From: Haloarcula sp. CBA1129
Lineage (GTDB): Archaea > Halobacteriota > Halobacteria > Halobacteriales > Haloarculaceae
Direction: 5' to 3'
Assembly: GCF_008729015.1 (NCBI RefSeq)
Contig: NZ_RKSM01000001.1
Location: 434,001-498,000, forward strand
DNA length: 64,000 nucleotides
The position numbers and the translations under genes were made by a program. Under the pieces are notes generated by a model that was not told where the DNA came from, made no database searches, and was given only the letters and a program-made list of their open reading frames with translations. How positions within the stretch are numbered: position 1 is the first letter of the stretch; each line of letters starts with the position of its first letter. This document shows positions 1-22,232 of the stretch, piece by piece.

Positions 1-2595
1 GACACTCACGTTCGTGTAGCCCTCGTCGGTGCCCCACTCGCCGTACCCCGTGGTTGAGTAGGGAACGGTCATCTCGAAGTTCCCGTTCTGATCGGTCTGG
101 GTCCGTTGGCGGTAGATGAACGTCTTGTTCGTGGCCGGGTTGCGCATCTCCACGGCGGTCCGGACTGTCGTGTTCGCCGGTCCAGTCCCTTCAATCGTCG
201 CACCGGGAACGCGCTCGAATATCTTCGTCCAGGCGGAATGCTGGTATTGTGGGCTGTTCGGGAACGCCTCGGTCTCACTGGAACCGACCAGACGGTAGTG
301 TTCCATCGCCGGAACCCGCTCGGTGGGAGCATCACCGTAGCCACCGAGTTGCGAGGTCGCGTCCTGCTCGACGTACTGGCGGGCCTGCTCTACGCTCTGG
401 AACTGGCGGATGACCTGTCCCTGCTGTTGGCCCTCCGGCTCCTGTTCGTTCGTCGGCGCACCGCGGTACTGCGCGCCCTGTTGTGTCTGCTTGTTCTCCC
501 AGTCGACGACAATCGGTTGCGGCGCCGCAGCGCTGCCGTGGAACCGGTACAGCCGGGTGACCATCGTCTCGTAGTAGGCCTGTTGCTGGAACGTCACCTG
601 ACGGACACCGCCTTGAGACTGGATGTACAGCCGACTGTAGAAATCACTGGTCTGCACCCCGTCGACGAAGGCTGACGGGGCGAAGAACTTGCCACCGAGA
701 TTTCCGTTGGTCTCGGCCATCTTCCAGTCGACAGCCACGTACCGCGTCTTCGCGTCATCCTCGTCTGTGTTGTCGAGGATCTCGTTCGCCTGCGTTTCGT
801 TCTGTGCGATCAGGAACGGTGCAACCGTTTCGGTGCCCTGTTGGAACGGGTTGGCGTTCGGAACACGCTCGGCTCTAGTTGTAATCCAGTGTCCGTAGTC
901 CCACCACGACAAAACACCGTACTGTCCATCATGGTAGTCGAAGTCCTCTTGTTCCTCATAGGTACCATAGTAATCAAGCGTCGCCTCGCCGCCAGAGCCG
1001 TAGGCCCCTTCGGCGGGTGTGTTCGATTCCATCCACTGCAGGCTCTCATCCCAACCCTGGATACCCGGCCCGGGACCGGTTGAGCCGGCCTCAACTGGCG
1101 TTGTACCGAAGGCGAACAGCGGGACAACAATGACAAGAAGTACCGTGAAGATAGTTAGAACCTGATAGTATTCGATCCCATCGTCGGCGCTGAAATCGAA
1201 CCAGACGATAAATCGACCGACGACCATCCCTGACAGCACTGCAATCGGCGCGACGAGATAGTACGCGAACCGCCGCTGGGTGAACGTAGCCAACAGGATG
1301 AACAGTGCCCAAACGACGATGAGTAGCTCTTCTGCGGGTGCATCGTCAGAGAGGAACTGCTTTCCGAGCAGGATGAGGCCGCCGATTCCTGCGACGATGA
1401 CAGCGAACCCGTGCTGGTCAAACAAGACGCCAGCGTTCCGCAGCGGCGAGGCTTCGCCGACGGTGTTGGCCGTTTCGCTGGTTGTGAGACCGATTACCCG
1501 CATCACGTTGTTTGTGAAGAAGCTCCACAGATCGGGGGTCAATACTGCCATTAGAATCGCTCCGAGAGCGAGTATCGCAAACACGACCGCCGGATACACG
1601 TACCGGCCGTATTCACGCTGCTCCATGAACCGGGCCAGCCATGCCATGAACACGCAGCCGAGGCCAACAGCCAACGCCAGCCCTGGCTGTAGCAGCGATT
1701 GCTCGGTGGCTGTGATATCTAGTACGTTAACTCTAGATGCACTCAACACAGCGGCAGTCATCATCGTGATTGCGCCCGCGATGGCCGTGTGTTCCGGGCT
1801 GCTGTCGTGAACGTACTCCAGACACAATCGGAGCAGGAAGAAGGCACCGAGTATGCCGAGGAGGAGTACACCAGGAGCCCAAGTCCAGAGATACAGCGCA
1901 ATCGCCACACCAGCCAGCACGGACCAACTGATAGTGTCTCGCAATGCACTGATATCTCGCTCGACGAACTGCTCGTAGATGGGCTTGTCCCGCGCGGCGA
2001 CGCTGACAGCCACCATGACACCGAGGACCCCAAGTACTTGGAAGAGCGCTTCAGCGACGTGGTGGTCGGAGAACCCGACGCGACTCCGCTGTAACAGTCC
2101 ACCAGTCGAGAATGCGAGCACAGTCACCGCGGTCACGCCGCCGATGCGGCCGCCGAGTCGCTTGCCAACGAAGTACGTTGGAATCGCAACGACCGTCCCG
2201 AACACGGCCGGTGCGAACAGGACTGTCATCGCGACCGTCTGGTCGCTAGGGGAACCCAGACCGACAATCAGGGCAGCTGTCGCGATGATCTGATCGAACA
2301 GCGTCCCGAACTGCCCATTTGTGGTCCCGTACGGGAAATAGGTCCACGGGTCGAACGGCATCGTCGAGGGCCAGTTCTGGACCACGTACTGGGTTGAACG
2401 GTAGTGATACCAAGCGTCGTTCCCGCTGAAGAGGACTTCACCGTCAACAATGAAGTTCTGCCAACTCCGGACGCGATTCCACAGCATGAACCCGAGCAGT
2501 ACCAGGAGGACCGGAACGTGGTACCAGCGCTCGGCCCACTCTAGGGCGGACTCGAGTTCGGGGTTGTCGTCAAGATAGCCCCGTGATTGACTCAT
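1..2595 (-). CDS. aglB: AglB, archaeal oligosaccharyltransferase (STT3 family), 3' end outside window
   Basis: Transfers the lipid-linked glycan from dolichol phosphate to Asn of N-x-S/T sequons on the outer face of the membrane. The visible 865 residues begin MSQSRGYLDD and show a single N-terminal helix, a first acidic motif GNDAWYHYR (Asp60), a second D-H-H segment (FSDHHVAE), many hydrophobic helices, and the family signature WWDYGHW at residues 564-570 (bases 886-906). A Gln/Pro-rich extracellular stretch follows and the frame stays open to base 1, so the C-terminus lies beyond the window. The start is the ATG at 2595, placed about 27 bases after an A/T-rich box. It is transcribed divergently from an AglG-like glycosyltransferase, the same adjacency I recall in Haloferax volcanii. 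Identity is very secure. Confidence 0.96.
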   Translation of the reverse strand, partial: MSQSRGYLDDNPELESALEWAERWYHVPVLLVLLGFMLWNRVRSWQNFIVDGEVLFSGNDAWYHYRSTQYVVQNWPSTMPFDPWTYFPYGTTNGQFGTLFDQIIATAALIVGLGSPSDQTVAMTVLFAPAVFGTVVAIPTYFVGKRLGGRIGGVTAVTVLAFSTGGLLQRSRVGFSDHHVAEALFQVLGVLGVMVAVSVAARDKPIYEQFVERDISALRDTISWSVLAGVAIALYLWTWAPGVLLLGILGAFFLLRLCLEYVHDSSPEHTAIAGAITMMTAAVLSASRVNVLDITATEQSLLQPGLALAVGLGCVFMAWLARFMEQREYGRYVYPAVVFAILALGAILMAVLTPDLWSFFTNNVMRVIGLTTSETANTVGEASPLRNAGVLFDQHGFAVIVAGIGGLILLGKQFLSDDAPAEELLIVVWALFILLATFTQRRFAYYLVAPIAVLSGMVVGRFIVWFDFSADDGIEYYQVLTIFTVLLVIVVPLFAFGTTPVEAGSTGPGPGIQGWDESLQWMESNTPAEGAYGSGGEATLDYYGTYEEQEDFDYHDGQYGVLSWWDYGHWITTRAERVPNANPFQQGTETVAPFLIAQNETQANEILDNTDEDDAKTRYVAVDWKMAETNGNLGGKFFAPSAFVDGVQTSDFYSRLYIQSQGGVRQVTFQQQAYYETMVTRLYRFHGSAAAPQPIVVDWENKQTQQGAQYRGAPTNEQEPEGQQQGQVIRQFQSVEQARQYVEQDATSQLGGYGDAPTERVPAMEHYRLVGSSETEAFPNSPQYQHSAWTKIFERVPGATIEGTGPANTTVRTAVEMRNPATNKTFIYRQRTQTDQNGNFEMTVPYSTTGYGEWGTDEGYTNVSV

Positions 2596-2652
2596 TGCAC
2601 GGAAAAACTGCCAAGGCGCGCATAAGCCTTTTGACCTCTATGCGAGCGCAGG
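2596..2652. promoter_or_regulatory. Compact divergent promoter between aglB and the GT2 gene
   Basis: Only 57 bases separate two divergent starts. An A/T-rich patch around 2619-2633 (cataagccttttg) lies about 27 bases upstream of both ATGs, the distance expected for TATA boxes of leaderless haloarchaeal transcripts. The two promoters must overlap physically. Read from the sequence by eye; not tested. Confidence 0.5.
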
Positions 2653-3627
2653 ATGGAAACGCCTAACAGCACCGGTGGCACACCACCGACCATGCGAGTC
2701 TCGGTCGTGCTCTGTACGCACACGATGGAGCGATACGATGACTGTCGAGCGGCGGCCGAGAGCGTCTTAGCCCAGACCTACGACGACGTGGAACTCGTAT
2801 TGGTCTCGGATGGTAACCGGGACGTGTACGAACAGTACAACTCCGACTTCGGCGACCGGGAAGCGGTCCTGACGCACTGTAACGACGAGAACGTCGGGCT
2901 GCTGGAGAGTCGGAACAACGGGGCCGAAGTAGCGACCGGGGACGTCGTCGCGTTCATCGATGACGACGCTATCGCCGACGAGGGGTGGGTCGAGGCGTTA
3001 GTCGCTGCCTACGAACAACACGACGCGCTCGCGGCTGGCGGCCGCATGACCCCGGCGTGGGTCGCCGGCAAGCCCAGTTTTCTGCCAGCGGAGTTCTACT
3101 GGCTCATCGGTGTCACACACCGCGGGTTCGGACCGAACGGCGACCCCGACGAACCCGGCGTCGTCCGCAACACGTTCGGCTCGAACATCTCTTTCGACCG
3201 GAACGTGTTTCTCGAACTGGGTGGCTTTGACGACGATATCGGCGGTCGGCAGGGCGACAAGAACCTTCAGGGCGGCGAGACGGAACTCTGTGCACGCCTG
3301 CGAAGTGAGTACGATGAGGGCGTGTACTACACCCCGGACGCCCTCGTCGCCCACAAGATATTCCACTACCGGACCGACCCCGGCTGGCTCATCGACCGCG
3401 CGTTCTGGCAGGGGTACTCCAAGCGCGGGATGGAAGTGTTCGTTCCTGAATCGACAGGTGCAGAATCGGATTTCCTCGGCGACCTCCTGTTTCAGTTTGC
3501 CCCCAAAAGGATCGGGCGTGTCACCCGCTCGCCGTCGGTCGGCGGCGTGCTACAGCTCGTGTTCCTGTTTGTGCTGACCGCCTTCGTCGGGTTTGGGTAC
3601 CTCTATGGGATGACGGTCTGGGGGTAA
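2653..3627 (+). CDS. aglG: Family 2 glycosyltransferase, AglG-like (glucuronosyl-type transfer to dolichyl-P-hexose)
   Basis: A 324-residue GT2 enzyme with a cytosolic GT-A domain and one C-terminal membrane helix (about 295-320). The nucleotide-sugar fold is seen as VSVVLCTHTMERY, VLVSDGN, and the metal-binding acidic motif AFIDDDA around residue 98. In Haloferax, AglG adds the second sugar, a hexuronic acid, to the dolichol-linked precursor and lies beside aglB, as here. The ATG at 2653 is used because a TATA-like box precedes it by about 27 bases; an internal ATG at 2692 (MRVSVVLC) would remove a 13-residue extension. The next gene begins three bases after the stop, so the two are co-transcribed. 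The exact sugar and acceptor are inference. Confidence 0.7.
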   Translation: METPNSTGGTPPTMRVSVVLCTHTMERYDDCRAAAESVLAQTYDDVELVLVSDGNRDVYEQYNSDFGDREAVLTHCNDENVGLLESRNNGAEVATGDVVAFIDDDAIADEGWVEALVAAYEQHDALAAGGRMTPAWVAGKPSFLPAEFYWLIGVTHRGFGPNGDPDEPGVVRNTFGSNISFDRNVFLELGGFDDDIGGRQGDKNLQGGETELCARLRSEYDEGVYYTPDALVAHKIFHYRTDPGWLIDRAFWQGYSKRGMEVFVPESTGAESDFLGDLLFQFAPKRIGRVTRSPSVGGVLQLVFLFVLTAFVGFGYLYGMTVWG

Positions 3628-3630
3628 TAG

Positions 3631-4824
3631 ATGACGGAACCAAAACGTCGCGAAGAGGCTGACGTGGATGCACAGGGAACGGACCTTCCGAGCGTCTGTG
3701 TCGTGACCCATCCGCTTGCCGCCGCCGGTGAGAACGCCACGCGGAGTCTACTGGATATCCTATCGGCTGTGACATCGGTCGCGCTCGTGACGGCTGACCT
3801 GCCGGCTGACTCCGAGATTCGTGACCGGCACGAACTCGTCGAACTCACACAGAAAGGCGCGGGTGACTCCGTCGTCACCGCCGCGTTCCGGTTCCTGCTG
3901 AACCAACTTCGGATGTGCCGCGTCATCGCCGACCGCGACGAAGACGTAGTGCTGTTTTTCGGCGCAACATCGTACCTATTACCTATTATCGCCGCTCGGC
4001 TGCTCGGTAAAACAGTTCTTGTCGAACCCCGCGGCGACGTACCGCTGACACTCCGGCTGAACTGGGAACAGCAGTTGCCAGACTGGGTGGCTGCCGGACT
4101 GGCCGGCGCCGTCCGGAGACTTGAGCGAGCTGGCTTCGCCACAGCCCACGGCGTCATCACCTACACACCGGAGATGGCTCGCCAGCTGGACCTGTATCCG
4201 GAATCCCCTACTGTGTATCCAACGGGCGCGCGATACGTCCGGACGGACGAATTTTGCGTCCAGCGACCCTACACTGACCGTGGCCGCGTTGTCGGATTCC
4301 TCGGGCGACTCGACGAAGAGAAGGGCGTGCGAGAGCTGGCAGCAGTTGCCAAGCAGCTTCCCGACGACATCACCTTCCGGTTTGTCGGGGACGGTGACCT
4401 CCGAGAGTGGCTGGAACGGGAACTCGCCAAAGAGATCGAGGCTGGCCGGGTGGAACTGACCGGTTGGGTCGACCACCACAAGGTTCCTCGCGCCCTGAAC
4501 GACCTTGACCTCCTGATCCTGCCCTCTCAGCCGACCGAAGGACTCCCGACGACTATTCTGGAGGCGCTGGCTTGCGGAACGCCGGTATACGCCAGCCCGG
4601 TCTCGGGTGTCCCGGACGTGGTCAGGGACGGAGAGACCGGCTTCACCATCGACTCGCGCGAGCCCACAGCACTGGCGGCGGGTATCAAGAGGATCCTCAA
4701 CAGAGACGATCTGGCAGCAATCAGCGAGAACGGACGTACCCTGATCGAATGCGAGTACAGTTTCGACGCGGCCTGTGAGCGATACCGCAGTATCCTTCGT
4801 TCCGTCACTGGCTACTCGTCGTAA
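3631..4824 (+). CDS. Family 4 glycosyltransferase (GT-B fold)
   Basis: A 397-residue retaining glycosyltransferase, presumably adding a sugar during lipid-linked glycan assembly on the cytoplasmic side. The C-terminal nucleotide-sugar domain is clear: VVGFLGRLDEEKGV, then FRFVGDGDLREWLE, and the E-x7-E type motif in LPSQPTEGLPTTILEALACGTPVYAS. No signal peptide or membrane helix is evident. It follows the AglG-like gene by three bases, so it is the second gene of that operon. Its stop overlaps by 13 bases the stop of a convergent sulfatase-like gene. Donor and acceptor cannot be read from sequence. Confidence 0.85.
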   Translation: MTEPKRREEADVDAQGTDLPSVCVVTHPLAAAGENATRSLLDILSAVTSVALVTADLPADSEIRDRHELVELTQKGAGDSVVTAAFRFLLNQLRMCRVIADRDEDVVLFFGATSYLLPIIAARLLGKTVLVEPRGDVPLTLRLNWEQQLPDWVAAGLAGAVRRLERAGFATAHGVITYTPEMARQLDLYPESPTVYPTGARYVRTDEFCVQRPYTDRGRVVGFLGRLDEEKGVRELAAVAKQLPDDITFRFVGDGDLREWLERELAKEIEAGRVELTGWVDHHKVPRALNDLDLLILPSQPTEGLPTTILEALACGTPVYASPVSGVPDVVRDGETGFTIDSREPTALAAGIKRILNRDDLAAISENGRTLIECEYSFDAACERYRSILRSVTGYSS

Positions 4825-6167
4825 CCCAACCGACGGAGCCGTTCCTTGACGTTCTCGTCCATATCCGGGCGCTCGACGTCGTCCGCCTCTGTCGCCCGGA
4901 CGAGTTGCCGGTGGTCATCGAGTCGTTTGCGAAGCCGCCGCTCCTGAGATGGGTGGTCCTCGATGACGTTTACCTGTTCTTCAGGGTCCGCTGTCAGGTC
5001 GTACAGTTCGTCGTCTGTGTCGTCCTCGTGGGCAATAAGCTTCCACTCTGGCTCTCGGACGCGGATGTGCTCGTACCCGTCGCTGTCGCGGTAACCGCCC
5101 AGAATCTCGCTGCGATCCCACTCTCCGTCGAAGGCGAGTCGCCGGAGGCTCTGTCCAAACCAGTTGTCCGGAATATCGAGTCCAGCGGTGTCGACGAGCG
5201 TACAGGGCAGGTCAGTCAGCCCGACTAGCTCATCGTAGCTCCCTGTATCGTCCCAGCCGTTAATCAGGAGCGGGACGTGGTTCTTCACGTCAAGCAGGCG
5301 AGCACCGCCGAAGTAACCGTGCTCGAGGAAGTGATCGCCGTGGTCCGCCGTCAATGCCATCACGTAGTCGTCTCCCCACGTCGACTTGACGGCGTCCATG
5401 AGGCGACCGACCTCCGCGTCGTTGAACCGTATCTCCGCATCATAGAGATCAATGAACGTCTGGTGCTCTTCCGCTGTCACTGCCTCAGGCTCTTCGATGA
5501 ACTTTCTACGAAGCTGGATCGAGTCGTTGTCGGACACCGGCTCGTCCCGGAACTCCAGCTGGTATTCCTCGGGCGGGAGGAAGGGATGGTGGACGTCCAT
5601 GTAGTGTGCCCAGACGAACGTCGGCGTCTCATCGTCGCTATCCTCGATGAACTGAATCGCCCGGTCAGTAATTTCATCGGCCGGGACGTGATAGGACCCG
5701 ACGTTGATGCCCTGTGAGGACTCGAGGAAGTCGTAGCCCCGCCTCAGGAGGGAGAGCAGCGTGCCGTCGAGGTTCGTCTTGGCCCACTTGCGGAGCTTCG
5801 AGGTAGTCGACTCGTCGGGCGCCGAGTCGTAGAACTCGTCCCAACCCCGGTCGTAGCCGAACTTCCCGGAGACGTAGAGGTTCGAGTGAAACCCACCGGT
5901 GCGGTAGCCGGCGTCGTCGAACACCTCGGATATAAGGGTCTGTTCCTCGGAAATTCGCTCGTGACCGCCATACATCATCGGCGTCACGCCCGAGAGGATG
6001 CCGGGAAATGAAAAACGGGTGCCGCCGACATGGGAGAAGGCGTTCAGGAACGTGCTGCTTTCTTCGGCGTACGCGTCGATATGTGGCGTGGTATCTCGTT
6101 CGTACCCGTGATACCCCACGTGGTCCGCTCGTAGCGAATCGATAGTAACGAGGAGGACGTTGTTCAT
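4812..6167 (-). CDS. Alkaline phosphatase-superfamily (sulfatase-like) protein 1, Thr at nucleophile position
   Basis: A 451-residue soluble protein with the sulfatase fold: metal ligand Asp10 in VTIDSLRADH, a HYMDVHHPFLPP segment, and the second metal cluster TADHGDHF (Asp275, His276). Compared with the sulfatase signature C-x-P-x-R, the aligned stretch GGTRFSFPGILSG has Thr50 at the Cys position and Phe at the Arg position, so formylglycine formation is not expected. Thr nucleophiles are known in phosphoethanolamine transferases and LtaS of this superfamily. There is no signal peptide, so a cytosolic role is inferred. It lies 35 bases after the flippase; a TATA-like taattaag near 6190 may add an internal promoter. 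The protein ends ERLRRLGYDE, a tail shared with four neighbours. Confidence 0.85.
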   Translation of the reverse strand: MNNVLLVTIDSLRADHVGYHGYERDTTPHIDAYAEESSTFLNAFSHVGGTRFSFPGILSGVTPMMYGGHERISEEQTLISEVFDDAGYRTGGFHSNLYVSGKFGYDRGWDEFYDSAPDESTTSKLRKWAKTNLDGTLLSLLRRGYDFLESSQGINVGSYHVPADEITDRAIQFIEDSDDETPTFVWAHYMDVHHPFLPPEEYQLEFRDEPVSDNDSIQLRRKFIEEPEAVTAEEHQTFIDLYDAEIRFNDAEVGRLMDAVKSTWGDDYVMALTADHGDHFLEHGYFGGARLLDVKNHVPLLINGWDDTGSYDELVGLTDLPCTLVDTAGLDIPDNWFGQSLRRLAFDGEWDRSEILGGYRDSDGYEHIRVREPEWKLIAHEDDTDDELYDLTADPEEQVNVIEDHPSQERRLRKRLDDHRQLVRATEADDVERPDMDENVKERLRRLGYDE

Positions 6168-6202
6168 GGTACTGCGTCCGCCAGTGGCATAATTAAGGAT
6201 TG

Positions 6203-7645
6203 CTATAGTATCGTTTCCGGCATAAGCAACTGGGCCTTCGAGCGAACCCGGGCTGAGATGACTATGAGGACGACAGCGTAGACGACCCCGCCGAAGCCGG
6301 CGAGCAGCAGCGTACCCAGCCGCCCGGGGGGCATCAGCATGGCGACGGGAGAGACTGCGGCGGCCATCAGCGCGGCAGCGGCGATTTGAGTGCTGAGTGT
6401 CCGGTACGGGATCCGGATAGATCCGACGATGTTTCCAAGTACCCAGTAACCGATTAGCGCCCGAAGCAGCGACGATAACGCGGTGGCGATTGCCGCACCC
6501 GTCCAGCTGAGCTGCCAGATGAGAACTGCATTCAGGATCGCGTTAGAGACAATGAAAACCATGTTTACACGGAATGCTGCGTCGGGCCTGTCGACCCCGT
6601 TGATAACGTTTGTGAACTGGGAAGCGAACGCGTCGGCAAGATACGCCGCGATGAGGATGAGCAACACCGTCGCACCTTGTTCGAACTCCGGTCGGTAGAA
6701 CCGGAGAACTCGGTCACCGATGACAGCCGCGCCGACAAGCCCCGGAATGACGAGGATACCGCTAAACGCCAGTGCCTCGTCGAGGTAGTGGACGATACGG
6801 TCGTAGCCGTCCTCCGTGCTCAGGTCGCTGACCTCGGGAAAAAGCGTCTGGCTGATCGAAGAACTCGCGATGGCAAGCATCGACGCGACACCCCACGCCG
6901 CCTCGTAGATGCCGATGAGAGATGCACTAACGAAAAAGGAGAGAAATATAGTGTCGAGCCAGCCGAATACCCGGCCTCGGAGCGCTCCCATCCACGCATA
7001 CTTGGCGTAGTCGACGAGGCTCCGGAGCTGGTCGACAGTGGGCAGCGCCGGCTCCCGCTCGCTCAGCAGGAAAGCAGCCACGGCGGCGACGGCAAGTGAC
7101 AAAGCGTGGCCCAGCGCGATGCCGGCCACGCCCATCGCTGCTAGGAGCGCCCCGATCTGTAGAGCGGTCCGTGTCACGCGTTCGCCGGCCTTGAGCCAAC
7201 CCGTCGCAGCGACTCGTTTCTGACCTTGCAAGCTGCCCTGTGCCGTCCGATATGCTACCGTTGCGACCAGCATGATCACGATTTCCACGTCGTAATCGAT
7301 GAGGACCCGCATCAGCTCGCGGTTGCGGGAAACAATCCCCCCGAGGAGTTCGCCGGCCGCCAAGACGAGGACGCCGAGCACGGCAGTCGCAACCGCGTTG
7401 AGCAGGATACCGCCGCCGATGAATCCAGCCGGACTGTCCCCCTCGCTAATCCGCTTTTTCATCGCGTTCGAAACAGCGTTGCCCGGGATCACTAGCCAAA
7501 AGAAGCCCAGTGAGACGATGACAGAATACCGTCCAAGCCCGTCTGCACCCAGAACAACAGCTATGAGCCATGTTGCCGCGAAACCGGCCAGCGTGACAAC
7601 GACCTGTGAGACAAAGTGCGAGAAGGCGGTTTTCCCAAGCTTCAT
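6203..7645 (-). CDS. Polysaccharide flippase (MATE/Wzx superfamily, AglR-like)
   Basis: A 480-residue integral membrane protein with about 12-14 hydrophobic helices and no soluble domain. The N-terminus (GKTAFSHFVSQVVVTLAGFAATWLIA) and the pattern of paired helices match the oligosaccharide flippase family. It probably moves the dolichol-linked glycan to the outer face for AglB. Its ATG overlaps the TGA of the upstream sulfatase-like gene (ATGA), so the two are translationally coupled; a second sulfatase-like gene follows 35 bases downstream. Haloferax AglR is a member of the same superfamily with a comparable job; direct orthology is not claimed. Confidence 0.82.
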   Translation of the reverse strand: MKLGKTAFSHFVSQVVVTLAGFAATWLIAVVLGADGLGRYSVIVSLGFFWLVIPGNAVSNAMKKRISEGDSPAGFIGGGILLNAVATAVLGVLVLAAGELLGGIVSRNRELMRVLIDYDVEIVIMLVATVAYRTAQGSLQGQKRVAATGWLKAGERVTRTALQIGALLAAMGVAGIALGHALSLAVAAVAAFLLSEREPALPTVDQLRSLVDYAKYAWMGALRGRVFGWLDTIFLSFFVSASLIGIYEAAWGVASMLAIASSSISQTLFPEVSDLSTEDGYDRIVHYLDEALAFSGILVIPGLVGAAVIGDRVLRFYRPEFEQGATVLLILIAAYLADAFASQFTNVINGVDRPDAAFRVNMVFIVSNAILNAVLIWQLSWTGAAIATALSSLLRALIGYWVLGNIVGSIRIPYRTLSTQIAAAALMAAAVSPVAMLMPPGRLGTLLLAGFGGVVYAVVLIVISARVRSKAQLLMPETIL

Positions 7646-9027
7646 TCCATGTAGCCCAAGTCGCGGAGCTGGCGTTGGACCGCTCCGGAAAACTCCTCCT
7701 GCTGTCCCCCCGAAACCGGCTGGCCGTTCGCCTCAACCCAGTCGGCGAGGTCGGACTGTAGCGACTCGGCCACTTCGGGGTACGTCTCGCGCACGTCGGT
7801 CTCCTCATCGGATAAATCAAACAATTCCGAACCCTCTGCACTCTCCTGATAGCGCCACCCTTCTGTCCGGAGCGCACTCAGCGTCCCGGTGTGGAGCGCC
7901 GAGTAGTCGAAGTCGGGGTTGTGGGTGAGCAGTTCCTCGTAGGTGTTCGGGCCCCGCTGAGAGACGGCGAACTCACGGCCCTCTTCACGAAGGTCGACTC
8001 CAATTGTATCCGATCCGTCCACGCCGGCGACTTCGAGCAATGTTCGCATCACGTCGCTGTGCTGGATGATGTCCCCGTTGTTGACGGTCAGCGGCTCGTC
8101 AAGTCCGCTGATGACAAGCGGGACGCGGGTGACGGCGTCGTTCAGGACGTAGCTGTGCGAGAGCAATCCCCACTCGCCGAACAGTTCGCCGTGGTCGCCA
8201 GTCACCACGACGATAGTGTCGCCAAGATCGAGCGAACGTAAATGCGAGACGAGCCGGCCTACCATTTCGTCTGTGTAGGCAATCTCCGCGTCGTACATCG
8301 CTCGCAGAGCAGCCCACTCTTGGTCGGTCAACTCGCAGCCGTTTGCGATAATTTCATCGAGGTCGTAGTGAATATCGAGCGCCAGTTCGGCGGCCTCCCG
8401 CCCGGACATCTCGAGGTCATCAGTGAAGGTATCGAGGTACTTCCCCGGTGGATAATAGGGTCGGTGGGGTTCGTTGTAATGGAGATAGAAAAAGAACGGC
8501 TTGGATTCGGATTCGAAGCCACCCAGCCATCGCTTCGCGACGCCGTTCATCAACAGTGGTGACGCGTGTTTTGACGTGTCCGTTGTCAGCCCGGCTGAGT
8601 GGTTCCGGATGTTCCAGAGGTACGAGGCGAGGGTCTTTGCACCGGCCCGATGAATCGTTGAAGATGCGAGCCACTGAAACCTATCGAAGCCACGATCAAG
8701 ATTGGTTGCTGAGCTGAGGTAGGAATTGCGCGACAGGCAAGCCGTCCGGTAGCCGGCATCGCGGAATCGCTCCGCGATCGTCGTAATACTGTCTGGAACC
8801 GCGTTCCCCTCAATCCCGATGTTCGTGTGGGTTGGAGCGTAACCCGTCAAGATTGCACCGCTAGAAGGAAGCGTAGATTTACCGTGGGCGATGCACGTAT
8901 CGAATCCGTGGCCTGAGGCGGCTAGGTCGGCCATCTCCGGGGTCGTGTCGCGCTCGTACCCTCCGATTGTCGTGTGATCCGACCGGAGGCTGTCAAGAGT
9001 GATCCAGACGATATTCGGCGTCGACAT
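7642..9027 (-). CDS. Alkaline phosphatase-superfamily (sulfatase-like) protein 2, Thr at nucleophile position
   Basis: A 461-residue soluble protein of the sulfatase fold. Asp12 sits in WITLDSLRSDH, HYNEPHRPYYPP follows in mid-protein, and VVVTGDHGELFGEWG supplies the second metal site. The active-site loop reads GKSTLPSSGAILTG: Thr52 replaces the sulfatase Cys and Ser replaces the Arg. The frame is open upstream to 9324, but the fold begins only at the ATG at 9027, and an A/T-rich box (9058-9070) lies in front of it. It shares GYERDTTP with the sulfatase-like gene at 4812-6167 and ends QLRDLGYME. It is first in an operon with the flippase (ATGA overlap), so it probably acts on the glycan or its carrier before flipping. 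Confidence 0.84.
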   Translation of the reverse strand: MSTPNIVWITLDSLRSDHTTIGGYERDTTPEMADLAASGHGFDTCIAHGKSTLPSSGAILTGYAPTHTNIGIEGNAVPDSITTIAERFRDAGYRTACLSRNSYLSSATNLDRGFDRFQWLASSTIHRAGAKTLASYLWNIRNHSAGLTTDTSKHASPLLMNGVAKRWLGGFESESKPFFFYLHYNEPHRPYYPPGKYLDTFTDDLEMSGREAAELALDIHYDLDEIIANGCELTDQEWAALRAMYDAEIAYTDEMVGRLVSHLRSLDLGDTIVVVTGDHGELFGEWGLLSHSYVLNDAVTRVPLVISGLDEPLTVNNGDIIQHSDVMRTLLEVAGVDGSDTIGVDLREEGREFAVSQRGPNTYEELLTHNPDFDYSALHTGTLSALRTEGWRYQESAEGSELFDLSDEETDVRETYPEVAESLQSDLADWVEANGQPVSGGQQEEFSGAVQRQLRDLGYME

Positions 9028-9123
9028 ACGGTGTAGTTTTTCATGACTAGCCCTCGAGTAATTTATATTCCGGTTCCAGATGGAGACGGATGATTTATCA
9101 CGAACGGTGGGATACCCGGACGC
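9028..9123. promoter_or_regulatory. Divergent promoter region between two sulfatase-like genes
   Basis: This 96-base spacer has two A/T-rich patches: taatttatattcc at about 9058-9070, which suits the minus-strand gene with a short leader, and gatttatcac at about 9091-9100, about 27 bases ahead of the plus-strand ATG at 9124. Two separate promoters are inferred. Confidence 0.5.
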
Positions 9124-9996
9124 ATGCCCGAAAGCCCAACGGCTGACACCAGCGCCAGCGAGCAGCTCTCCTATCGGCTCAGGAAGTGGCTGCTCCAGCG
9201 GGCTACCTCGATGGCCGACGCTGACCAGCATCAGCGAATCGCGGAGGGTGACTGGGATGTCCTGCTCGTCCTTGACGCCTGTCGGCTCGACACCTGTCGG
9301 GACGCTGTCGACTGGCCTGTCCAAGAAGTGACCACGCCAGCCAGCTGTACCCCGGACTGGCTCGCGGCTGCTGCAGATCGCGACCTGTTCGCCGGGAAGA
9401 CAGTCCTGACCGCAAATCCGCAGTATAAAAAGTTTGAGTTTGGGGCCGACTCACTGGAACACTTTTGGCAGAGCCACTGGGATGAACGACGCCAGACCGT
9501 GCTGCCCGAACCAGTCCTCGATAGAGTTACAGAGCACGTCAGTGGGGACTCGCCACCAGTCATCGCACACCTTCAGCAACCTCACTGGCCCTACGTCGCA
9601 CGGATTGACGATGAATGGGAGCTCGCATACCCCGACCTCGGGCCGTGGATGGACGGCGACGAGGAGATAGCTGGAATGCAGGTGGCGATGGCCCGCGGGA
9701 AGATCGATGTTGAACTGGCCCAGAGTGCCTATCGCGCCTCGGTTCGGAGCATCTGGCGGACGCTACTTCCGGCTATCGAATCGTGGGTTACCGACGGTCA
9801 CACCGTCGTCATCACCGCTGACCATGGGGAGGTTTTCGGCCGACTCGCCGACGCAACGATGTACGAACACCCTTGTAAGGTTGGGATCCGACCGCTGACG
9901 GCCGTCCCATGGGTCGAGTTCGATCCTTCTCAGCCTGAGGCGGTTGATGACGGGACTGTCCAAGACCGCTTGGAAGCGCTGGGCTATGCCGAGTAG
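9124..9996 (+). CDS. Alkaline phosphatase-superfamily protein 3, short form
   Basis: A 290-residue protein with a compact alkaline-phosphatase/sulfatase core. The first metal ligand is Asp51 in LLVLDACRLD and the second cluster is VVITADHGEVFG. The likely active-site loop is PASCTPDW (residues 73-79). It contains C-T-P but the Arg of C-x-P-x-R is Trp, so it should not be read as a formylglycine sulfatase; Ser74 or Thr76 may be the nucleophile. A HLQQPHWPYV segment corresponds to the substrate-side loop of its neighbours. No signal peptide. It ends QDRLEALGYAE, the tail shared by all five superfamily members here. First gene of a plus-strand series of three such genes plus a GT4. Confidence 0.75.
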   Translation: MPESPTADTSASEQLSYRLRKWLLQRATSMADADQHQRIAEGDWDVLLVLDACRLDTCRDAVDWPVQEVTTPASCTPDWLAAAADRDLFAGKTVLTANPQYKKFEFGADSLEHFWQSHWDERRQTVLPEPVLDRVTEHVSGDSPPVIAHLQQPHWPYVARIDDEWELAYPDLGPWMDGDEEIAGMQVAMARGKIDVELAQSAYRASVRSIWRTLLPAIESWVTDGHTVVITADHGEVFGRLADATMYEHPCKVGIRPLTAVPWVEFDPSQPEAVDDGTVQDRLEALGYAE

Positions 9997-10044
9997 CCGA
10001 AGTAGACAAGTATTAAACGGACGCGTAGCCGAGATGAAATAATC

Positions 10045-11013
10045 ATGGTGCTGGTCGTCATAGGTATCGACGCGCTGGACCCGGAGCTAGTAGACCCCGC
10101 GGACCATCCAAACCTCACGCTCGACAGCTACCGGGCCATAGAGACGATAGACAGCGTCGAGGGGGAGCCAAGTACCCACGAGCTATGGCCGACGATTATC
10201 ACTGGGCTCACCCCCAAAGAGCACGGGCTTGTGCTTGACGATGGCGTGGCCTGGGAGAACCCACTTTTGCGGTACGGCAGCGCTGCCGCGAAGTATCTGC
10301 TGCCTGACGGCCTCCAGACCAGAATCGGTGCGTGGCTCCTCAACAACACCGGCGAGGATGCCTTCCGTGTGCCAGCGACCTACTACGAGACAGAAGGGCT
10401 CTCGACGGTCTTCGATGGGTACGAGGCGGCAACAATCGGTATCCCGAACTACGTCGTCGATCCGGAGACCGAGGACCGGGAGCACAGCCTCCGGCGGAAT
10501 CTAGGGGACCTGTTTGAACGCGATGGGAGCGCCCCGGGCGGACACACCTCAGCCGACCCTGCAACATTCTACGAGCAGTGTCTGGAGATGTCGATGGTTC
10601 GTCTTGCCCGGGCACGCAGAGCACTCCGAGGCGGTCGGCAAGAACTCGTATTCGCTTACACGAGCGGACTTGACCTCATCGGCCACGTCTCCTACGACCA
10701 CCCGAAACTCCAGCGGCAGGCCTACGACGAACTCGACGAGTTCGTTGGTGAGCTGGTTGAGGACCTCCGCAAGGAGGACGAACTTTTGCTGGTGAGCGAC
10801 CACGGGCTTCAGGACGGCGTCCACACCCATGAGGCAATGGTCGCAGCCACATCGCCGCGTCTCGTCGAGGATATCGGGAGTGTCCTCGACGTTCGAGGAG
10901 CCATTGAGACCGAACTGGATCGGCACGACCACAGTGGCTCCGGCGGCGAGTCGCTCTCGATGGGCGACAACGACGCGGTGATGTCCCAACTTGAAAACCT
11001 CGGCTACATGTAG
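10045..11013 (+). CDS. Alkaline phosphatase-superfamily protein 4 (phosphodiesterase/nucleotide pyrophosphatase-like)
   Basis: A 322-residue soluble protein that resembles the type I phosphodiesterase branch more than arylsulfatases. Asp9 in VIGIDALDP is the first metal ligand. The loop STHELWPTIITGLTPKEHG carries Thr44 at the nucleophile position, and LLVSDHGLQDGVHTHE gives the later metal cluster. It ends SQLENLGYM. A tattaaa box at 10011-10017 about 30 bases before the ATG suggests its own promoter, so it can be expressed apart from the gene 48 bases upstream. The substrate is unknown; its placement among glycosyltransferases points to glycan or glycolipid processing. Confidence 0.74.
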   Translation: MVLVVIGIDALDPELVDPADHPNLTLDSYRAIETIDSVEGEPSTHELWPTIITGLTPKEHGLVLDDGVAWENPLLRYGSAAAKYLLPDGLQTRIGAWLLNNTGEDAFRVPATYYETEGLSTVFDGYEAATIGIPNYVVDPETEDREHSLRRNLGDLFERDGSAPGGHTSADPATFYEQCLEMSMVRLARARRALRGGRQELVFAYTSGLDLIGHVSYDHPKLQRQAYDELDEFVGELVEDLRKEDELLLVSDHGLQDGVHTHEAMVAATSPRLVEDIGSVLDVRGAIETELDRHDHSGSGGESLSMGDNDAVMSQLENLGYM

Positions 11014-11028
11014 ACCGTCGTAGTGGGA

Positions 11029-11034
11029 TTTATA
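11029..11034 (+). promoter_or_regulatory. TATA-like box for the sulfatase-like gene at 11059
   Basis: TTTATA lies 25-30 bases before the ATG at 11059, the spacing typical of a leaderless haloarchaeal transcript. It supports that ATG over an in-frame TTG at 11053. Confidence 0.5.
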
Positions 11035-11058
11035 CTGGTGACGTGATTCCCGTTGAGT

Positions 11059-12393
11059 ATGACCAGCATTGCCCTCGTCGTACTGGACACCCTCCGAAAG
11101 GACGCCTTCGACAGACACTTCGAGTGGCTTCCGGGAACCACCTTCGAGCACGCATATGCGCCGGGTCACTACACCGTTCCGTCACATGCTTCGCTGTTTA
11201 CCGGGCTCTATCCGATCGAGACCGGCACGAACGCTAATTCCCACCAGTTCACCCCGCCCCACCCCCCATTGGCCCGTCGACTTCAGGCGGAGGGGCTGGA
11301 TACCCACGCTTTCAGTGCAAACGTCCAGATCTCCCGGCAGTTCGGCTGGGACAGAGGATTCGACAGCTACAGCGGCTCTTGGAACTCAAAACATGCCAAC
11401 GCGGTCGACGACATTTTCGAGTGGAATGCGTTCATCCGGGAACACCGCGACGAGGGACCACAGCGCTATCTCAAAGCACTGTGGGCGTGTGTCTCCGGTG
11501 ACTGCGACACGGTCCCGAGTCTCAAACACGGGCTGGAGATCAAATACCGGACACACACTGTGTCTGACTCCGGGGCACAGGAGGCGCTCTCGCACGTTCG
11601 CGGCACCAACTTCGCGGACGACGCCTTCCTCTTCATGAACCTGATGGAGGCCCACGGGCCGTACAGACCGCCTGAAGAGCACCGTACGGTAGAGTTTGAG
11701 GAGATGCCCGGGTTTGCAGAGTCCGTCCAGGAGGAGCCGGTCGACGAGGAGTATGCAGAGACCATCCGGCAGGCCTACCGCGACTCGGTGCGGTATCTAT
11801 CCGAGAGGTATGAGGAGATATTCACGGAACTCAGCAACAAGTTCGACTACGTGATCACGCTAGCCGACCACGGGGAAAACCTCGGCGAGAAGGGAATCTG
11901 GGGTCACGGGCTGGGCCTCTACCCAGAACTGACTCATGTCCCGCTGTCAATCTGGGGAATGGACGGCGAGGAGACGCGCGATGAGGTTGTCAGCCTCATC
12001 GATGTCCACCGGACGATACTGGCGATGGTCGGTATCGGGGACAGCGAGTATGAGGGTCGCGGGCGGGACCTCCGGTCGCCTGTGAATCATGAGCCGCAGT
12101 TGACGGAGTACCTCGGCCTGAACATGTGGCGCGAACGGAAGCTGGAAGCGGCCGGACAATCCAGCGAGTTCTCGACGTACGACCGGAAGCTGTACGGCAT
12201 CGCTACGGCCGAAAACTACTACGGGTACGAAGACTTTGACGGGGAGTTCGTCGAATCCGGGTCGAGCACTCTCGAAACTCCCCGCGACCGGATGGACGAA
12301 CTGGTCGACGACCTCGATTATCTGGAGGGCACCGGTGATGTCGATGTCTCGGACTCGGTAATGGAGAGTCTCGAGGACTTGGGCTACGCCTGA
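11059..12393 (+). CDS. Alkaline phosphatase-superfamily (sulfatase-like) protein 5, T-x-P-S-H loop
   Basis: A 444-residue soluble protein starting MTSIALVVLD. Asp10 is the first metal ligand and TLADHGENLGE carries the second cluster. The active-site loop aligns residue for residue with the sulfatase signature: HAYAPGHYTVPSHASLFTG has Thr39 for the Cys and His43 for the Arg. NLMEAHGPYRPP matches the HxPY loop of its neighbours. It ends MESLEDLGYA. The loop argues for Thr-based phospho- or sulfo-group chemistry rather than formylglycine hydrolysis. A TATA-like box at 11029-11034 supports the start at 11059. The GT4 gene follows after 42 bases. Confidence 0.84.
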   Translation: MTSIALVVLDTLRKDAFDRHFEWLPGTTFEHAYAPGHYTVPSHASLFTGLYPIETGTNANSHQFTPPHPPLARRLQAEGLDTHAFSANVQISRQFGWDRGFDSYSGSWNSKHANAVDDIFEWNAFIREHRDEGPQRYLKALWACVSGDCDTVPSLKHGLEIKYRTHTVSDSGAQEALSHVRGTNFADDAFLFMNLMEAHGPYRPPEEHRTVEFEEMPGFAESVQEEPVDEEYAETIRQAYRDSVRYLSERYEEIFTELSNKFDYVITLADHGENLGEKGIWGHGLGLYPELTHVPLSIWGMDGEETRDEVVSLIDVHRTILAMVGIGDSEYEGRGRDLRSPVNHEPQLTEYLGLNMWRERKLEAAGQSSEFSTYDRKLYGIATAENYYGYEDFDGEFVESGSSTLETPRDRMDELVDDLDYLEGTGDVDVSDSVMESLEDLGYA

Positions 12394-12435
12394 GGTCGCA
12401 ACCGTTTTCACCGGCCTCAGTGAAGGCTAGTCACC

Positions 12436-13533
12436 GTGGCTTCGTTGGATATCTGCTTCGTGGTGAACGCGGTCGGCGAAGGGAGTATCCCGGCGGAGAT
12501 TGCGACGGCAGTGACACGACATACTGACCACACCGTCGACATCTTGACTTGGTTCGGCTCGGGACAGTTCGCTGGCAAGGAGCTATTGGATGTCCGGTCC
12601 CTCAACGCGCCGGACACAGCGCTTGGTATAGATTCGGCGACGTACCGCCGCGCTGCGAGCATTCTCTCCGAGTACGACCTGATTCAGGCCCACCACAACC
12701 ACTCTGCGGCCTTCACGAAGATCATCGCACGTCAGGTCGATGTGCCGGTCGTTTCCCGTGAGGGAAATACTCGCGATGGGTTCACCCGGAAGGGGCGGAT
12801 AGCCAACGGTATCACTAATCCGCTTGCCACACGTGTCGTCTGTATCTCCGATAGCGTCTACCGATCGTTCACCCGCTGGGAGCGGGCGATACTTCGCAAA
12901 GAAAAGGTTCGGCGAATCCCGAACGGCGTCCACTTAGACCGCATAGATGAGACTGCACCCGCACTACCGAACGGCGCCAACTTCACGGACGGCGCTTTCC
13001 TCGTTGGCAACGCAGCCATGCTACACGAACAGAAAGCCCAAGACACGTTAATCCGGGCTGTCGCAAGGCTGAATGAGCGGGCGGACCGACCCGTGGAACT
13101 CGCTATCTGCGGCGACGGACCCGAACGATCACGTCTGGAATCCCTTGCCGAGACACTCGGCATTCCATCGCGGGTCCACTTCGCTGGTCTGGTTGAGCGT
13201 CGGGCCGTCTACGCAATGGCAAAAGCAGCTGATGCCTTCGCGATGCCGTCCCGCTGGGAAGGGTTCTGCTCAGCCGTCGCTGAGGCGCTGGCTGCGGAAA
13301 CCGCAACGGTTCTCTCGGATATCGACACGTTTAGAGAGCTGTACGATGGCGCGGCGCTGTATCATGAGGTTGATGATGTCGATGGCCTCACGAACTGTCT
13401 GGGTCTGTTGCTGTCGGACGAATCACGTCGCGAGTCACTATCACGAGCAGGGCGCGACTTGGTCGAAGAAAAGTATACTATCAAAGCTATCGCTGGGCAG
13501 TACGGCGCACTGTACGACGACATTGCCGGGTAG
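12436..13533 (+). CDS. Family 4 glycosyltransferase (GT-B fold)
   Basis: A 365-residue enzyme with the GT4 layout: an N-terminal acceptor domain (HHNHSAAFTKIIARQVDVPVVS) and a C-terminal nucleotide-sugar domain with VGNAAMLHEQKAQDTLIRA, LAICGDGPERSRLE and the E-x7-E motif SRWEGFCSAVAEALAAE. The start is GTG at 12436; no in-frame ATG lies close by. It has no membrane helix, so it works at the cytoplasmic face. It closes the plus-strand run of three superfamily phosphatase/sulfatase-like genes, and ends two bases before the convergent TrmB gene. The donor sugar is not predictable. Confidence 0.82.
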   Translation: MASLDICFVVNAVGEGSIPAEIATAVTRHTDHTVDILTWFGSGQFAGKELLDVRSLNAPDTALGIDSATYRRAASILSEYDLIQAHHNHSAAFTKIIARQVDVPVVSREGNTRDGFTRKGRIANGITNPLATRVVCISDSVYRSFTRWERAILRKEKVRRIPNGVHLDRIDETAPALPNGANFTDGAFLVGNAAMLHEQKAQDTLIRAVARLNERADRPVELAICGDGPERSRLESLAETLGIPSRVHFAGLVERRAVYAMAKAADAFAMPSRWEGFCSAVAEALAAETATVLSDIDTFRELYDGAALYHEVDDVDGLTNCLGLLLSDESRRESLSRAGRDLVEEKYTIKAIAGQYGALYDDIAG

Positions 13534-13535
13534 TC

Positions 13536-14378
13536 TCAGTTTGGCTGCCGAACACTCTCATACTCCCAGATCAGATCGAAGTACCGCTTCATCCCGGCGA
13601 CGAATGACCCGTTGTCTGTAATCGCGGCTTGGCGCATGTGGTTGGGAACGTCCGGTTCCTCGACCAGCAGAATCGCCTCGCCGCTGTCGTAGTCCATGCT
13701 CGGGTCGACGAGCGTGCCGCGCCAAGGGAGTTTCTCTGTGCTGAACCGCAGGTCGATTGCGGGATATTCCTCTTTCAGCCGGTCGACGATGTCGGCCTGG
13801 ACAGCAGCCTTCTTCGCTGGGAGTGCATCGGGATGCAAGAAGAGCACGCTGACATCGATGCCACGGTCGAGGGCGTCTTCGAGGGCGCGCTCGACGCTGT
13901 CGAGGTAGGCAAAACTGTTGGTGATAACTCGTAGCGTCTCGTCGGCGTCGTCGTACAGCCGTCTAGTTTCGCGTTCGCTCGGTTCGCCCACGTCGACGAC
14001 GTGGAACAGTTCGGCCGTCGGCGAGATGTCTTCGCTGGCGCGTTCGAATTGCGGTTCATACTCGGCGAGGAAGACATCGCGGTAGGAATCGATGTCTGCG
14101 GAGAACGACTCGTATGATTGCCTGCGGTTTTCGACGGCCCGTTCGAGAATTTTGCTGGGGGATTTCGGCTGGTACTCCTTGGGCCGACCGGGAATTACCT
14201 TGATGAAGCCGCGGTCGGACAGCGACTCCAGCACGCCGTAGACGCGAGCCTTCGGGATGCCGCTCGCTTCCGCGAGATTCGGAGCCGTCGTTCGGCCGAG
14301 CGAGAGCAACTGTTCCAGTGCCGTCGCCTCGTATTCGGTGAGCCCAACTAAGTCGAACACGTCCGCGGGGTCGCTCAT
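13536..14378 (-). CDS. TrmB-family transcriptional regulator
   Basis: A 280-residue regulator. Residues about 10-80 form a winged helix typical of TrmB (LTEYEATALEQLLSLGRTTAPNLAEASGIPKARVYGVLESL). A linker and a C-terminal domain (LRVITNSFAYLDSVERALEDALDRGIDVSVLFL) of the phospholipase-D-like effector type seen in haloarchaeal TrmB proteins follow. TrmB proteins usually bind sugars and control sugar uptake or metabolism. The position between two glycosyltransferase genes suggests glycosylation control, which is inference. A TATA-like ttttata at about 14399-14405 lies 21-27 bases before the ATG at 14378. Divergent from a tiny CxC protein and AglJ. Confidence 0.85.
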   Translation of the reverse strand: MSDPADVFDLVGLTEYEATALEQLLSLGRTTAPNLAEASGIPKARVYGVLESLSDRGFIKVIPGRPKEYQPKSPSKILERAVENRRQSYESFSADIDSYRDVFLAEYEPQFERASEDISPTAELFHVVDVGEPSERETRRLYDDADETLRVITNSFAYLDSVERALEDALDRGIDVSVLFLHPDALPAKKAAVQADIVDRLKEEYPAIDLRFSTEKLPWRGTLVDPSMDYDSGEAILLVEEPDVPNHMRQAAITDNGSFVAGMKRYFDLIWEYESVRQPN

Positions 14379-14451
14379 ACACGCTCATGAGCAGGAGGGG
14401 TATAAAACGCGTCGCCCGCCGCCCAAATCTATTAGTGGGTGGCGGCGAGTA

Positions 14452-14580: not shown

Positions 14581-14727
14581 GACAGTTTGTTGTCGGCTAG
14601 TCCCGGCTGTCATCAGCTAGTCCCCCAGTCACCGCTGCTTCACCGACGACCGGCGGGAAGCTGGAACGAACATCCGCCCGCGGCCAGACCCGCATTTATT
14701 TGCCTTCGCGTGGCTGACGTTGAGTCG

Positions 14728-15774
14728 ATGGCCGACCGAGACGACGTCTGTATACTGTTGCCGACATTCAACGAGGCTGAGACTATCGAGTCGGTCGTGT
14801 CCGGGTTCCGTGAGCAGGGCTTCGACAACGTCCTCGTCATCGACGGCGGGTCGACCGATAAGACACAGGAAGTCGCCGAATCAGCCGGTGCACGGGTCGT
14901 CGAACAGTCCGGCTCGGGGAAGGGGCAGGCCGTCAGAGAGGCGGTGGCGCGCCACATCGAGCAGCCGTACGTCCTGATGGCTGACGGCGACGCGACATAT
15001 CGGCCCGACGAGGCAGACCGGTTGCTCGAACCGCTGCTCTCGGGACAGGCCGCACACGTCATCGGAAACCGCTTTGCGGATATGCAGCCCGGCGCGATGA
15101 CGAAACTCAACCAGATCGGCAACCGTATCATCAATAGTGCCTTCGAAACGATCCACGGACGGGACCTCACTGATATCCTCTCGGGGTATCGTGCGTTTAC
15201 GCGGCAGTCGTTCCAGCGGAGTTCGCTGACGGCGTCGGGCTTCGGTATCGAGACCGAGATGGCTGTCGAGTGTGTCAAACACAACATCTCGACGGCGGTG
15301 GTGCCGATCACCTATCTGCCCCGGCCCGACGAGTCCGATACGAACCTCCGCCCGTTCCGGGACGGCGCAACGATTATCCTGACGCTGTACCAGATGGCAA
15401 AGACCAACAATCCGCTCTTTTACTTCGGGAGCGTCGGCCTCGGGAGCACTGTGGTCGGGTTCCTGCTCGGAGCGTACGTGGCCTACGACTGGGTTGTCAA
15501 CAGCATCTCACACGAGGTGATAGCCGTTATCGGCTCGTTCGCTATTCTGCTGGGGATCCAACTTCTCATGTTCGGTGTCCTCTCAGATATGCTCGTGGCG
15601 GTGAACCGCGAGCAGACGCGCCGGTTGGAGGACATCGCTGTCCAACTCACACACGAGAGCCCCAATCAGCCGGCGGATGTGTTCGATGACCAGCAGACCG
15701 GCGACGCGGAAGGCACCGAGGAGAGCGACAGCGGGACAGAGCCGGCGGTATCTCCGCGTCAGCCCGACAAATAG
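14728..15774 (+). CDS. aglJ: AglJ-like dolichyl-phosphate hexosyltransferase (GT2, DPM1-like with C-terminal membrane helices)
   Basis: A 348-residue enzyme that should charge dolichol phosphate with the first sugar of the N-glycan. The DPM1-type GT-A domain shows ILLPTFNEAETIESVV, VLVIDGGSTDKT and the acidic motif LMADGDATY. GNRFADMQPGAMTKLNQIGNRI and DILSGYRAFTR follow, all typical of haloarchaeal AglJ. Two hydrophobic helices lie near 230-255 and 265-290, then a polar acidic tail. The ATG at 14728 is preferred: catttattt at about 14692-14700 sits 28-36 bases ahead, while the longer open frame from 14587 lacks recognisable sequence. It ends one base before the convergent small gene. Confidence 0.78.
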   Translation: MADRDDVCILLPTFNEAETIESVVSGFREQGFDNVLVIDGGSTDKTQEVAESAGARVVEQSGSGKGQAVREAVARHIEQPYVLMADGDATYRPDEADRLLEPLLSGQAAHVIGNRFADMQPGAMTKLNQIGNRIINSAFETIHGRDLTDILSGYRAFTRQSFQRSSLTASGFGIETEMAVECVKHNISTAVVPITYLPRPDESDTNLRPFRDGATIILTLYQMAKTNNPLFYFGSVGLGSTVVGFLLGAYVAYDWVVNSISHEVIAVIGSFAILLGIQLLMFGVLSDMLVAVNREQTRRLEDIAVQLTHESPNQPADVFDDQQTGDAEGTEESDSGTEPAVSPRQPDK

Positions 15775-22230: not shown

Positions 22231-22232
22231 CG

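Follow-up and report, generated by a model that had tools for sequence, protein, structure and literature searches.

What do five proteins of the alkaline phosphatase (AP)/sulfatase superfamily do in a haloarchaeal cluster built around the N-glycosylation gene aglB? The question is raised by a 64-kb window, which here means the whole stretch of DNA analysed (contig C1 434001-498000 of the 4.05-Mb genome of Haloarcula sp. CBA1129). We consider it probable, at a rough probability of 0.62, that the five are not sulfatases and instead act as cytosolic sulfotransferases with a threonine nucleophile on a glycan linked to dolichol phosphate (DolP).

A first-pass annotation of the DNA had proposed five superfamily members at this locus. 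The five open reading frames (ORFs) are open over the coordinates listed below, and membership is borne out by PF00884 for P0001, P0002 and P0005, by PF01663 for P0004, and by a profile match together with a structure model for P0003.

4812..6167, minus strand: AP1 (P0001), 451 aa; PF00884 (E 9e-37) plus SGSH_C; T50 (codon 6018-6020); tail VKERLRRLGYDE (4815-4850)
7642..9027, minus strand: AP2 (P0002), 461 aa; PF00884 (E 4e-42); T52 (codon 8872-8874); tail VQRQLRDLGYME
9124..9996, plus strand: AP3 (P0003), 290 aa, minimal AP domain; structure model and profile match; T76 (codon 9349-9351); tail VQDRLEALGYAE (9958-9993)
10045..11013, plus strand: AP4 (P0004), 322 aa, phosphodiesterase/nucleotide pyrophosphatase (NPP) type; PF01663 (E 2.5e-14); T44 (codon 10174-10176); tail AVMSQLENLGYM
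11059..12393, plus strand: AP5 (P0005), 444 aa; PF00884 (E 1e-21); T39 in T-x-P-x-H (codon 11173-11175); tail SVMESLEDLGYA; an alternative in-frame TTG start at 11053 is possible

All five carry Thr at the position where sulfatases have the Cys that becomes formylglycine (T50, T52, T76, T44 and T39 in P0001 to P0005). The first-pass annotation had counted four; counting back from the (S/T)-G pair upholds P0001, P0002, P0004 and P0005, and P0003 has to be added to them. T76 of P0003, in S-C-T-P-D-W, is paired with T50 of P0001 when the P0003 family is compared with the PF00884-type set by hhalign (99.2%, E 1e-19), and the pattern S-x-[AG]-S-x-[TS]-x-[ED]-[WF] is kept in the family. The Cys or Ser with which the C/S-x-P-x-R motif of type I formylglycine sulfatases begins is absent from all five, and the Arg at position 5 is lost in all, as had been noted, being F, S, W, H or absent. 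The Gly-Lys-x-His signature is missing as well: P0001 has FHSNL opposite IGKMH of 7oz8, with whose nucleophile T50 is aligned, and the consensus of the PF00884-type alignment is F-x-x-N. These residues ruled out a formylglycine-sulfatase reading. In the haloarchaeal PF00884-type alignment the site residue is Thr in 17 of 20 sequences, Ser in three and Cys in none, so that among the relatives aligned the replacement appears to hold as Thr, sometimes Ser and never Cys. T50 (helix 50-59) and T76 each begin a helix in well-scored structure models; these models contain no metals, and the placement of the Thr relative to the metals was judged from the alignment and the helix position. By alignment, the zinc-site His that follows DHG-E...H is present in P0002, P0003 (H249, invariant) and P0005, and is replaced by Gly in P0001.

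The proteins are most likely cytosolic. The absence of a signal peptide, claimed earlier, stands: neither a signal peptide nor a transmembrane segment is evident, and the catalytic domain begins within the first 3-45 residues. In a simple hydropathy scan, the maximum over 19 residues does not exceed 1.32 in the five proteins and reaches 2.55 in the neighbouring flippase, and nothing resembles the membrane anchor with extracytoplasmic catalytic domain of the EptA/LtaS type. An amphipathic membrane helix at the N-terminus of P0003 was considered and rejected as unconvincing (hydrophobic moment at most 0.30).

A threonine in this position would suit a transferase. Formylglycine lets the sulfo-enzyme break down to water, which frees sulfate, and sulfatase variants with Ser in place of formylglycine stall as sulfo-enzymes. 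A plain alkoxide ester would be stable until an acceptor attacks, so that the sulfate of a Thr enzyme would be retained for a sugar. In the mechanism that we propose, the Thr would attack the sulfur of an activated donor, which may be 3′-phosphoadenosine 5′-phosphosulfate (PAPS), adenosine 5′-phosphosulfate (APS) or another compound, to form a covalent Thr-O-sulfo enzyme, from which a hydroxyl of the DolP-linked, uronic-acid-containing glycan would take the sulfuryl group. That the Arg and Gly-Lys-x-His are missing fits a changed donor. Sulfation would precede export of the glycan of the aglB-aglG-aglJ cluster by the flippase, and the several paralogues would modify several positions or sugars.

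The closest experimental parallel is the aglB cluster of Halobacterium salinarum, which holds three AP-superfamily genes, VNG1056C, VNG1057C and VNG1063H (PMC11980604). The first two (Agl30 and Agl31) were identified in 2025, by deletion and heterologous expression, as sulfotransferases for the N-linked tetrasaccharide: deletion lowered the di-sulfated glycan by >50-fold to 250-fold, and expression in Haloferax volcanii led to sulfation of the host N-glycan (PMC11980604). The text of that paper does not mention PAPS, phosphosulfate, a sulfate donor, an active site, a nucleophile, threonine or cysteine (PMC11980604). As in that cluster, the AP catalytic domains of the window are encoded beside aglB and end in a C-terminal LGY tail: translation of the printed primers gives the tails HLEDLGYL (VNG1056C), LEELGYT (VNG1057C) and KELGYIE (VNG1063H) (PMC11980604). 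The VNG1057C primer frame TTSKLR is identical to residues 121-126 of P0001, a match in a variable region that is suggestive only, and the VNG1063H frame VHYFQPH is close to the P0003-family signature VHYMQPH. A search with a printed Agl30/31 start primer found nothing in the genome contigs or in 392 genomes of the order, and the sole 3-mismatch match of the same primer in 26 genomes taken as the family of Halobacterium was treated as chance. In Haloarcula hispanica, according to the passages available of PMC9943897, a DolP-linked sulfated hexuronic acid (DolP-HexA-SO3) is made; these passages do not name the sulfating enzyme.

Individually, the five proteins belong to several branches of the superfamily. 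P0001 is matched best by arylsulfatase models and sulfatase structures, and its own model (predicted local distance difference test score, pLDDT, 84) has the overall sulfatase fold, with a best structural Z of 41.8 to the sulfatase SpAS2. It is the nearest of the five to arylsulfatases and tentatively Agl31-like. P0003 matches no Pfam or NCBIfam model, nor any solved chain by sequence. Its model, built with 25 haloarchaeal relatives (pLDDT 88, predicted TM-score 0.85), suggests a bare AP-superfamily domain closest to EptA. The family was found in 122 of the 146 haloarchaeal genomes searched, with 1 to 11 matches per genome, and by its HYxQPH signature it looks like the family of VNG1063H. Its members, for example the window gene at 9124-9996 and a relative at L082 8593-9606, are annotated mostly as 'hypothetical protein' or 'LTA synthase family protein'. 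P0004 exceeds the PF01663 cut-off (54.1 bits against 23), which places it in the NPP/phosphodiesterase family, a subfamily other than that of the PF00884 proteins, and has a Ser/Gly/Asp linker before its tail. The best Protein Data Bank matches of P0005 include EptC and EptA, zinc-site His included. The P-loop (PAPS) sulfotransferase domains PF00685 and PF13469 have no match in any of the five proteins.

The rival explanations differ in the group that is moved and in the glycan that receives it. One is that the five are phosphotransferases that resemble LtaS, EptA and GacH but work at the cytosolic face, carrying phosphoglycerol, phosphoethanolamine or a phosphosugar to the glycan; we regard this as unlikely, at somewhat better than one chance in five. 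Thr in an AP core is the nucleophile of that very group, the nearest solved structures of P0003 and in part of P0005 belong to it, P0004 is a PF01663 protein, and a single nominal shift of +80 Da alone cannot separate phosphate from sulfate. The relatives Agl30 and Agl31, however, give sulfation (PMC11980604), EptA and LtaS are anchored with the catalytic domain outside whereas the five proteins lack an anchor, and tailed relatives have neighbours of a sulfate type (CysD-like and CysP-like, described below). The Agl30/31 study (PMC11980604), DolP-HexA-SO3 in the passages of PMC9943897 and these neighbours lean towards sulfo over phospho. That the five are sulfatases or other hydrolases which trim or edit the glycan, as their annotation would have it, is very improbable: the arylsulfatase matches of P0001 speak for it, but the formylglycine Cys/Ser, the Arg and Gly-Lys-x-His are gone, the proteins are predicted to be cytosolic, and deletion of the relatives causes sulfate to be lost, not gained (PMC11980604). 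A less distant possibility, though a doubtful one at somewhat under one chance in three, is that the cluster serves mainly sulfation of exopolysaccharide and not of the S-layer N-glycan. In the passages available, AepG (HAH_1206) of Har. hispanica, from an equivalent cluster, makes DolP-linked glucuronic acid (DolP-GlcA) and DolP-GlcA-SO3 for exopolysaccharide, not N-glycans (PMC9943897), and several other tailed AP genes of the present genome sit in polysaccharide clusters. Yet no aepG-like gene is seen between aglB and aglJ in window 1-15774, compared with HAH_1202-HAH_1214 of Har. hispanica; aglB, aglG and aglJ are present, and Agl30/31 act on the N-glycan of Halobacterium.

Several results weigh against glycan sulfotransfer by all five proteins. 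The top solved matches of the P0003 model are movers of phospho groups, the phosphoethanolamine transferases EptA/EptC/MCR (Z 15-16; EptA 16.2), with sulfatases next (Z 13-14). Deletion of VNG1063H had no effect on N-glycan sulfation, and C-terminally tagged Agl30/31 were active, which means that activity does not strictly depend on a free tail (PMC11980604). The kinship of the five to Agl30/31 was compared through the primer-encoded peptides alone. Tailed AP proteins occur in bacteria (Chloroflexi) beside an ordinary P-loop sulfotransferase, and no PAPS-making enzyme was found in the genome, which leaves the sulfate donor unexplained. The earlier proposal of a phospho- or sulfo-modification module mislabelled as sulfatases is well supported in so far as the proteins are non-sulfatases, cytosolic and near N-glycosylation genes; an N-glycan role for all five is not established, because the VNG1063H deletion had no effect and the sulfated DolP-GlcA of Har. 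hispanica feeds exopolysaccharide.

The five proteins, 290 to 461 aa long and from different subfamilies, all end V-x3-L-x2-LGY-x(1-2), in summary VxxRLxxLGYx, and 12 of the 13 PF00884 proteins of the genome share this tail. The same transposase-like gene adjoins several of the polysaccharide/AP clusters of the genome (L025 14847-15956, L026 17-1126, L027 6916-8025). In the P0003 family, the L, L, G and Y of the tail are invariant in 26 sequences, down to 25% identity, and the linker before it varies in length and sequence. Among 756 distinct haloarchaeal ORFs of at least 150 aa, some of them mechanical and not real genes, taken from loci picked by AP or CysD-like matches with loci picked by the tail pattern excluded (so that the totals are not genome frequencies), 106 end in the strict form L-x-x-[LM]GY-x(1-3): 87 AP proteins, 16 CysD-like proteins, two truncated AP ends and one NUDIX protein. 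Outside AP and CysD-like ORFs the strict tail is nearly absent, at 1 in roughly 650. Total matches in two genome-wide pattern scans did not exceed a reversed-pattern control; what is informative is the identity of the genes with the tail, the plausible ones being those of AP proteins, of a CysD-like protein, of a small ribbon-helix-helix protein and of a further protein, which we take to be aIF6. The tail thus appears to be a mark of AP proteins that, among the ORFs examined, is hardly ever seen elsewhere apart from the CysD-like protein; no literature on it was found. In a polysaccharide cluster of a Chloroflexi metagenome-assembled genome (L021 2342-10610), a P-loop sulfotransferase ending QMGYS accompanies two AP proteins with the C-termini LRALGYVD and LRDLGYIE.

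The CysD-like protein (P0016, C1:552615-553676; loci L033, L081 and L084) is a PP-loop protein and the sole good PF01507 match of the genome besides the tRNA-thiolation enzyme NcsA. It matches sulfate adenylyltransferase subunit CysD with E 5e-22, under the cut-off, and also resembles solved CysD 1zun. Its tail, ...RAQDKEDLMERLRDLGYM (DLMERLRDLGYM), hardly varies among 29 relatives, and family members were found in 141 of 146 haloarchaeal genomes. The C-terminus of E. coli CysD is ...DRDQAGSMELKKRQGYF; a Gly-Tyr end is therefore common to CysD, while in its LxxLGY form the tail resembles those of the AP proteins. ATP sulfurylase (Sat, PF01747) has no match in the genome, the best CysN match is under the cut-off and probably EF-1A, and an APS kinase match was rejected as FtsY. 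On plasmid pHALXA01 of Halopiger xanaduensis (L181 10014-27585), a CysD-like gene adjoins that of a PiT-family transporter, matched best in NCBIfam by the sulfate permease CysP, in a cluster that also holds GT4 genes, a flippase, six tailed AP genes and one AP gene without the tail. The CysP-like neighbour was seen in Halopiger only and is absent near the chromosomal copies examined. The CysD-like gene on pNATPE01 of Natrinema pellirubrum has aglM and aglF next to it and a tailed AP gene at a distance of 17 kb; three other plasmid copies have no AP neighbours. In the bacterium Desulfolutivibrio, one CysD-like relative has the C-terminus LRCLGYL, and two sulfotransferase genes are located 3-12 kb from a second relative. 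Tandem second CysD-like copies occur in several haloarchaea (L104 2933-3886 next to 850-2499; also G050, G029 and G057).

The shared tail might dock the transferases on a common partner in sulfate activation. We put forward tentatively, as distinctly less likely than not, that sulfate is activated by the CysD-like enzyme with neither CysN nor APS kinase and that the LxxLGY tail passes the product, possibly APS, to at least three subfamilies of Thr AP-fold sulfotransferases, five of them in the window. A simpler account, to which we give nearly even odds, is that the tail does no more than cap a helix at the end of the AP fold and is unrelated to sulfate activation, and that the resemblance of the CysD-like protein reflects chance and an ancestral GYF end. 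E. coli CysD already ends KKRQGYF, LGY is found on bacterial AP proteins too, and the tagged Agl30/31 work; but the tail of P0001 is unpacked in the model (pLDDT 40-46), variable linkers precede tails, and L-x-x-L-G-Y is shared by three different AP subfamilies and nearly absent in other ORFs.

The surroundings of the five genes are as follows.

1..2595, minus strand: aglB, oligosaccharyltransferase, 5′ part, running off the window; TIGR04154 archaeo_STT3, E 1e-269, 897 bits (cut-off 450)
2653..3627, plus strand: aglG, glucosyl-DolP glucuronosyltransferase; NF041394, 493 bits (cut-off 440)
3631..4824, plus strand: GT4 glycosyltransferase; PF00534/PF13692
6203..7645, minus strand: Wzx/MurJ-type flippase; PF01943/PF03023; maximum hydropathy 2.55
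12436..13533, plus strand: GT4 glycosyltransferase; PF00534
13536..14378, minus strand: TrmB-family sugar-sensing regulator; PF01978, E 5.9e-20
14587..15774, plus strand: aglJ, first-sugar DolP glycosyltransferase; TIGR04182, 461 bits (cut-off 325)

The order aglB(-), aglG(+), GT4(+), AP1(-), flippase(-), AP2(-), AP3(+), AP4(+), AP5(+), GT4(+), TrmB(-), aglJ(+) identifies a Haloarcula-type aglB-aglG...aglJ cluster and confirms the interleaving with a flippase and GT4 genes near N-glycosylation genes that had been described. This arrangement is not due to chance, because Haloarcula amylolytica, Haloarcula mannanilytica and Haloarcula vallismortis have largely the same gene order; P0001 is 96-97% identical to its counterparts in Har. 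amylolytica and Har. vallismortis. The TrmB-family regulator (13536-14378), between the AP/GT4 run and aglJ, is a candidate controller of the cluster. The reading frame of aglJ opens with a TTG at 14587, but translation probably begins further downstream. Downstream of the cluster, at 19501-27080, large ORFs follow one another on the minus strand and may encode sensor or response-regulator proteins.

AP proteins that sulfate glycans have been known as a kind since 2025; what appears to be new is the explanation at the active site and how widely it holds, together with the minimal P0003 family and the tail that AP proteins have in common with the CysD-like protein. No publication on them was found in the library searched. 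If the sulfotransferase reading is true, many archaeal 'sulfatases' add sulfate, and their annotation is wrong in direction in most haloarchaeal genomes. Thr instead of formylglycine would supply an active-site explanation for the Agl30/31 finding that a single point mutant can test. The 290-aa P0003 family, which has no Pfam entry, is named here as a minimal AP domain, and the shared tail may offer a handle on haloarchaeal sulfate activation, a step with no known enzyme found in the genome.

Compared with known systems, the locus is most like that of Agl30, Agl31 and VNG1063H, with which it shares the superfamily, the aglB-anchored cluster, several paralogues, the lack of a formylglycine annotation and the LGY tail read from the primers; it differs in having five genes instead of three, one of them NPP-type, in lacking a predicted transmembrane segment such as that of Agl30, and in its host glycan. 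With the EptA/MCR phosphoethanolamine transferases and the LtaS/GacH phosphoglycerol transferases the five share the Thr nucleophile, the AP core, the transferase logic and, for the P0003 model, a Z of up to 16.2, but those enzymes transfer phospho groups, are anchored in the membrane and work outside the cytoplasm. Type I formylglycine sulfatases (S1 family) have the same fold and, like P0001, the C-terminal subdomain, whereas the five have lost the catalytic Cys/Ser, Arg and Gly-Lys-x-His and are not exported. P0004 scores above the cut-off of the PF01663 nucleotide pyrophosphatases/phosphodiesterases and P0005 has T-x-P-x-H; in contrast to that family, the proteins here are short, tailed and encoded in a glycosylation cluster. 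Finally, P0016 resembles CysD in its PP-loop and its C-terminus (...SMELKKRQGYF in E. coli, ...LMERLRDLGYM in P0016), but it falls below the CysD cut-offs, no CysN partner was found, and its tail has the LxxLGY form of the AP proteins.

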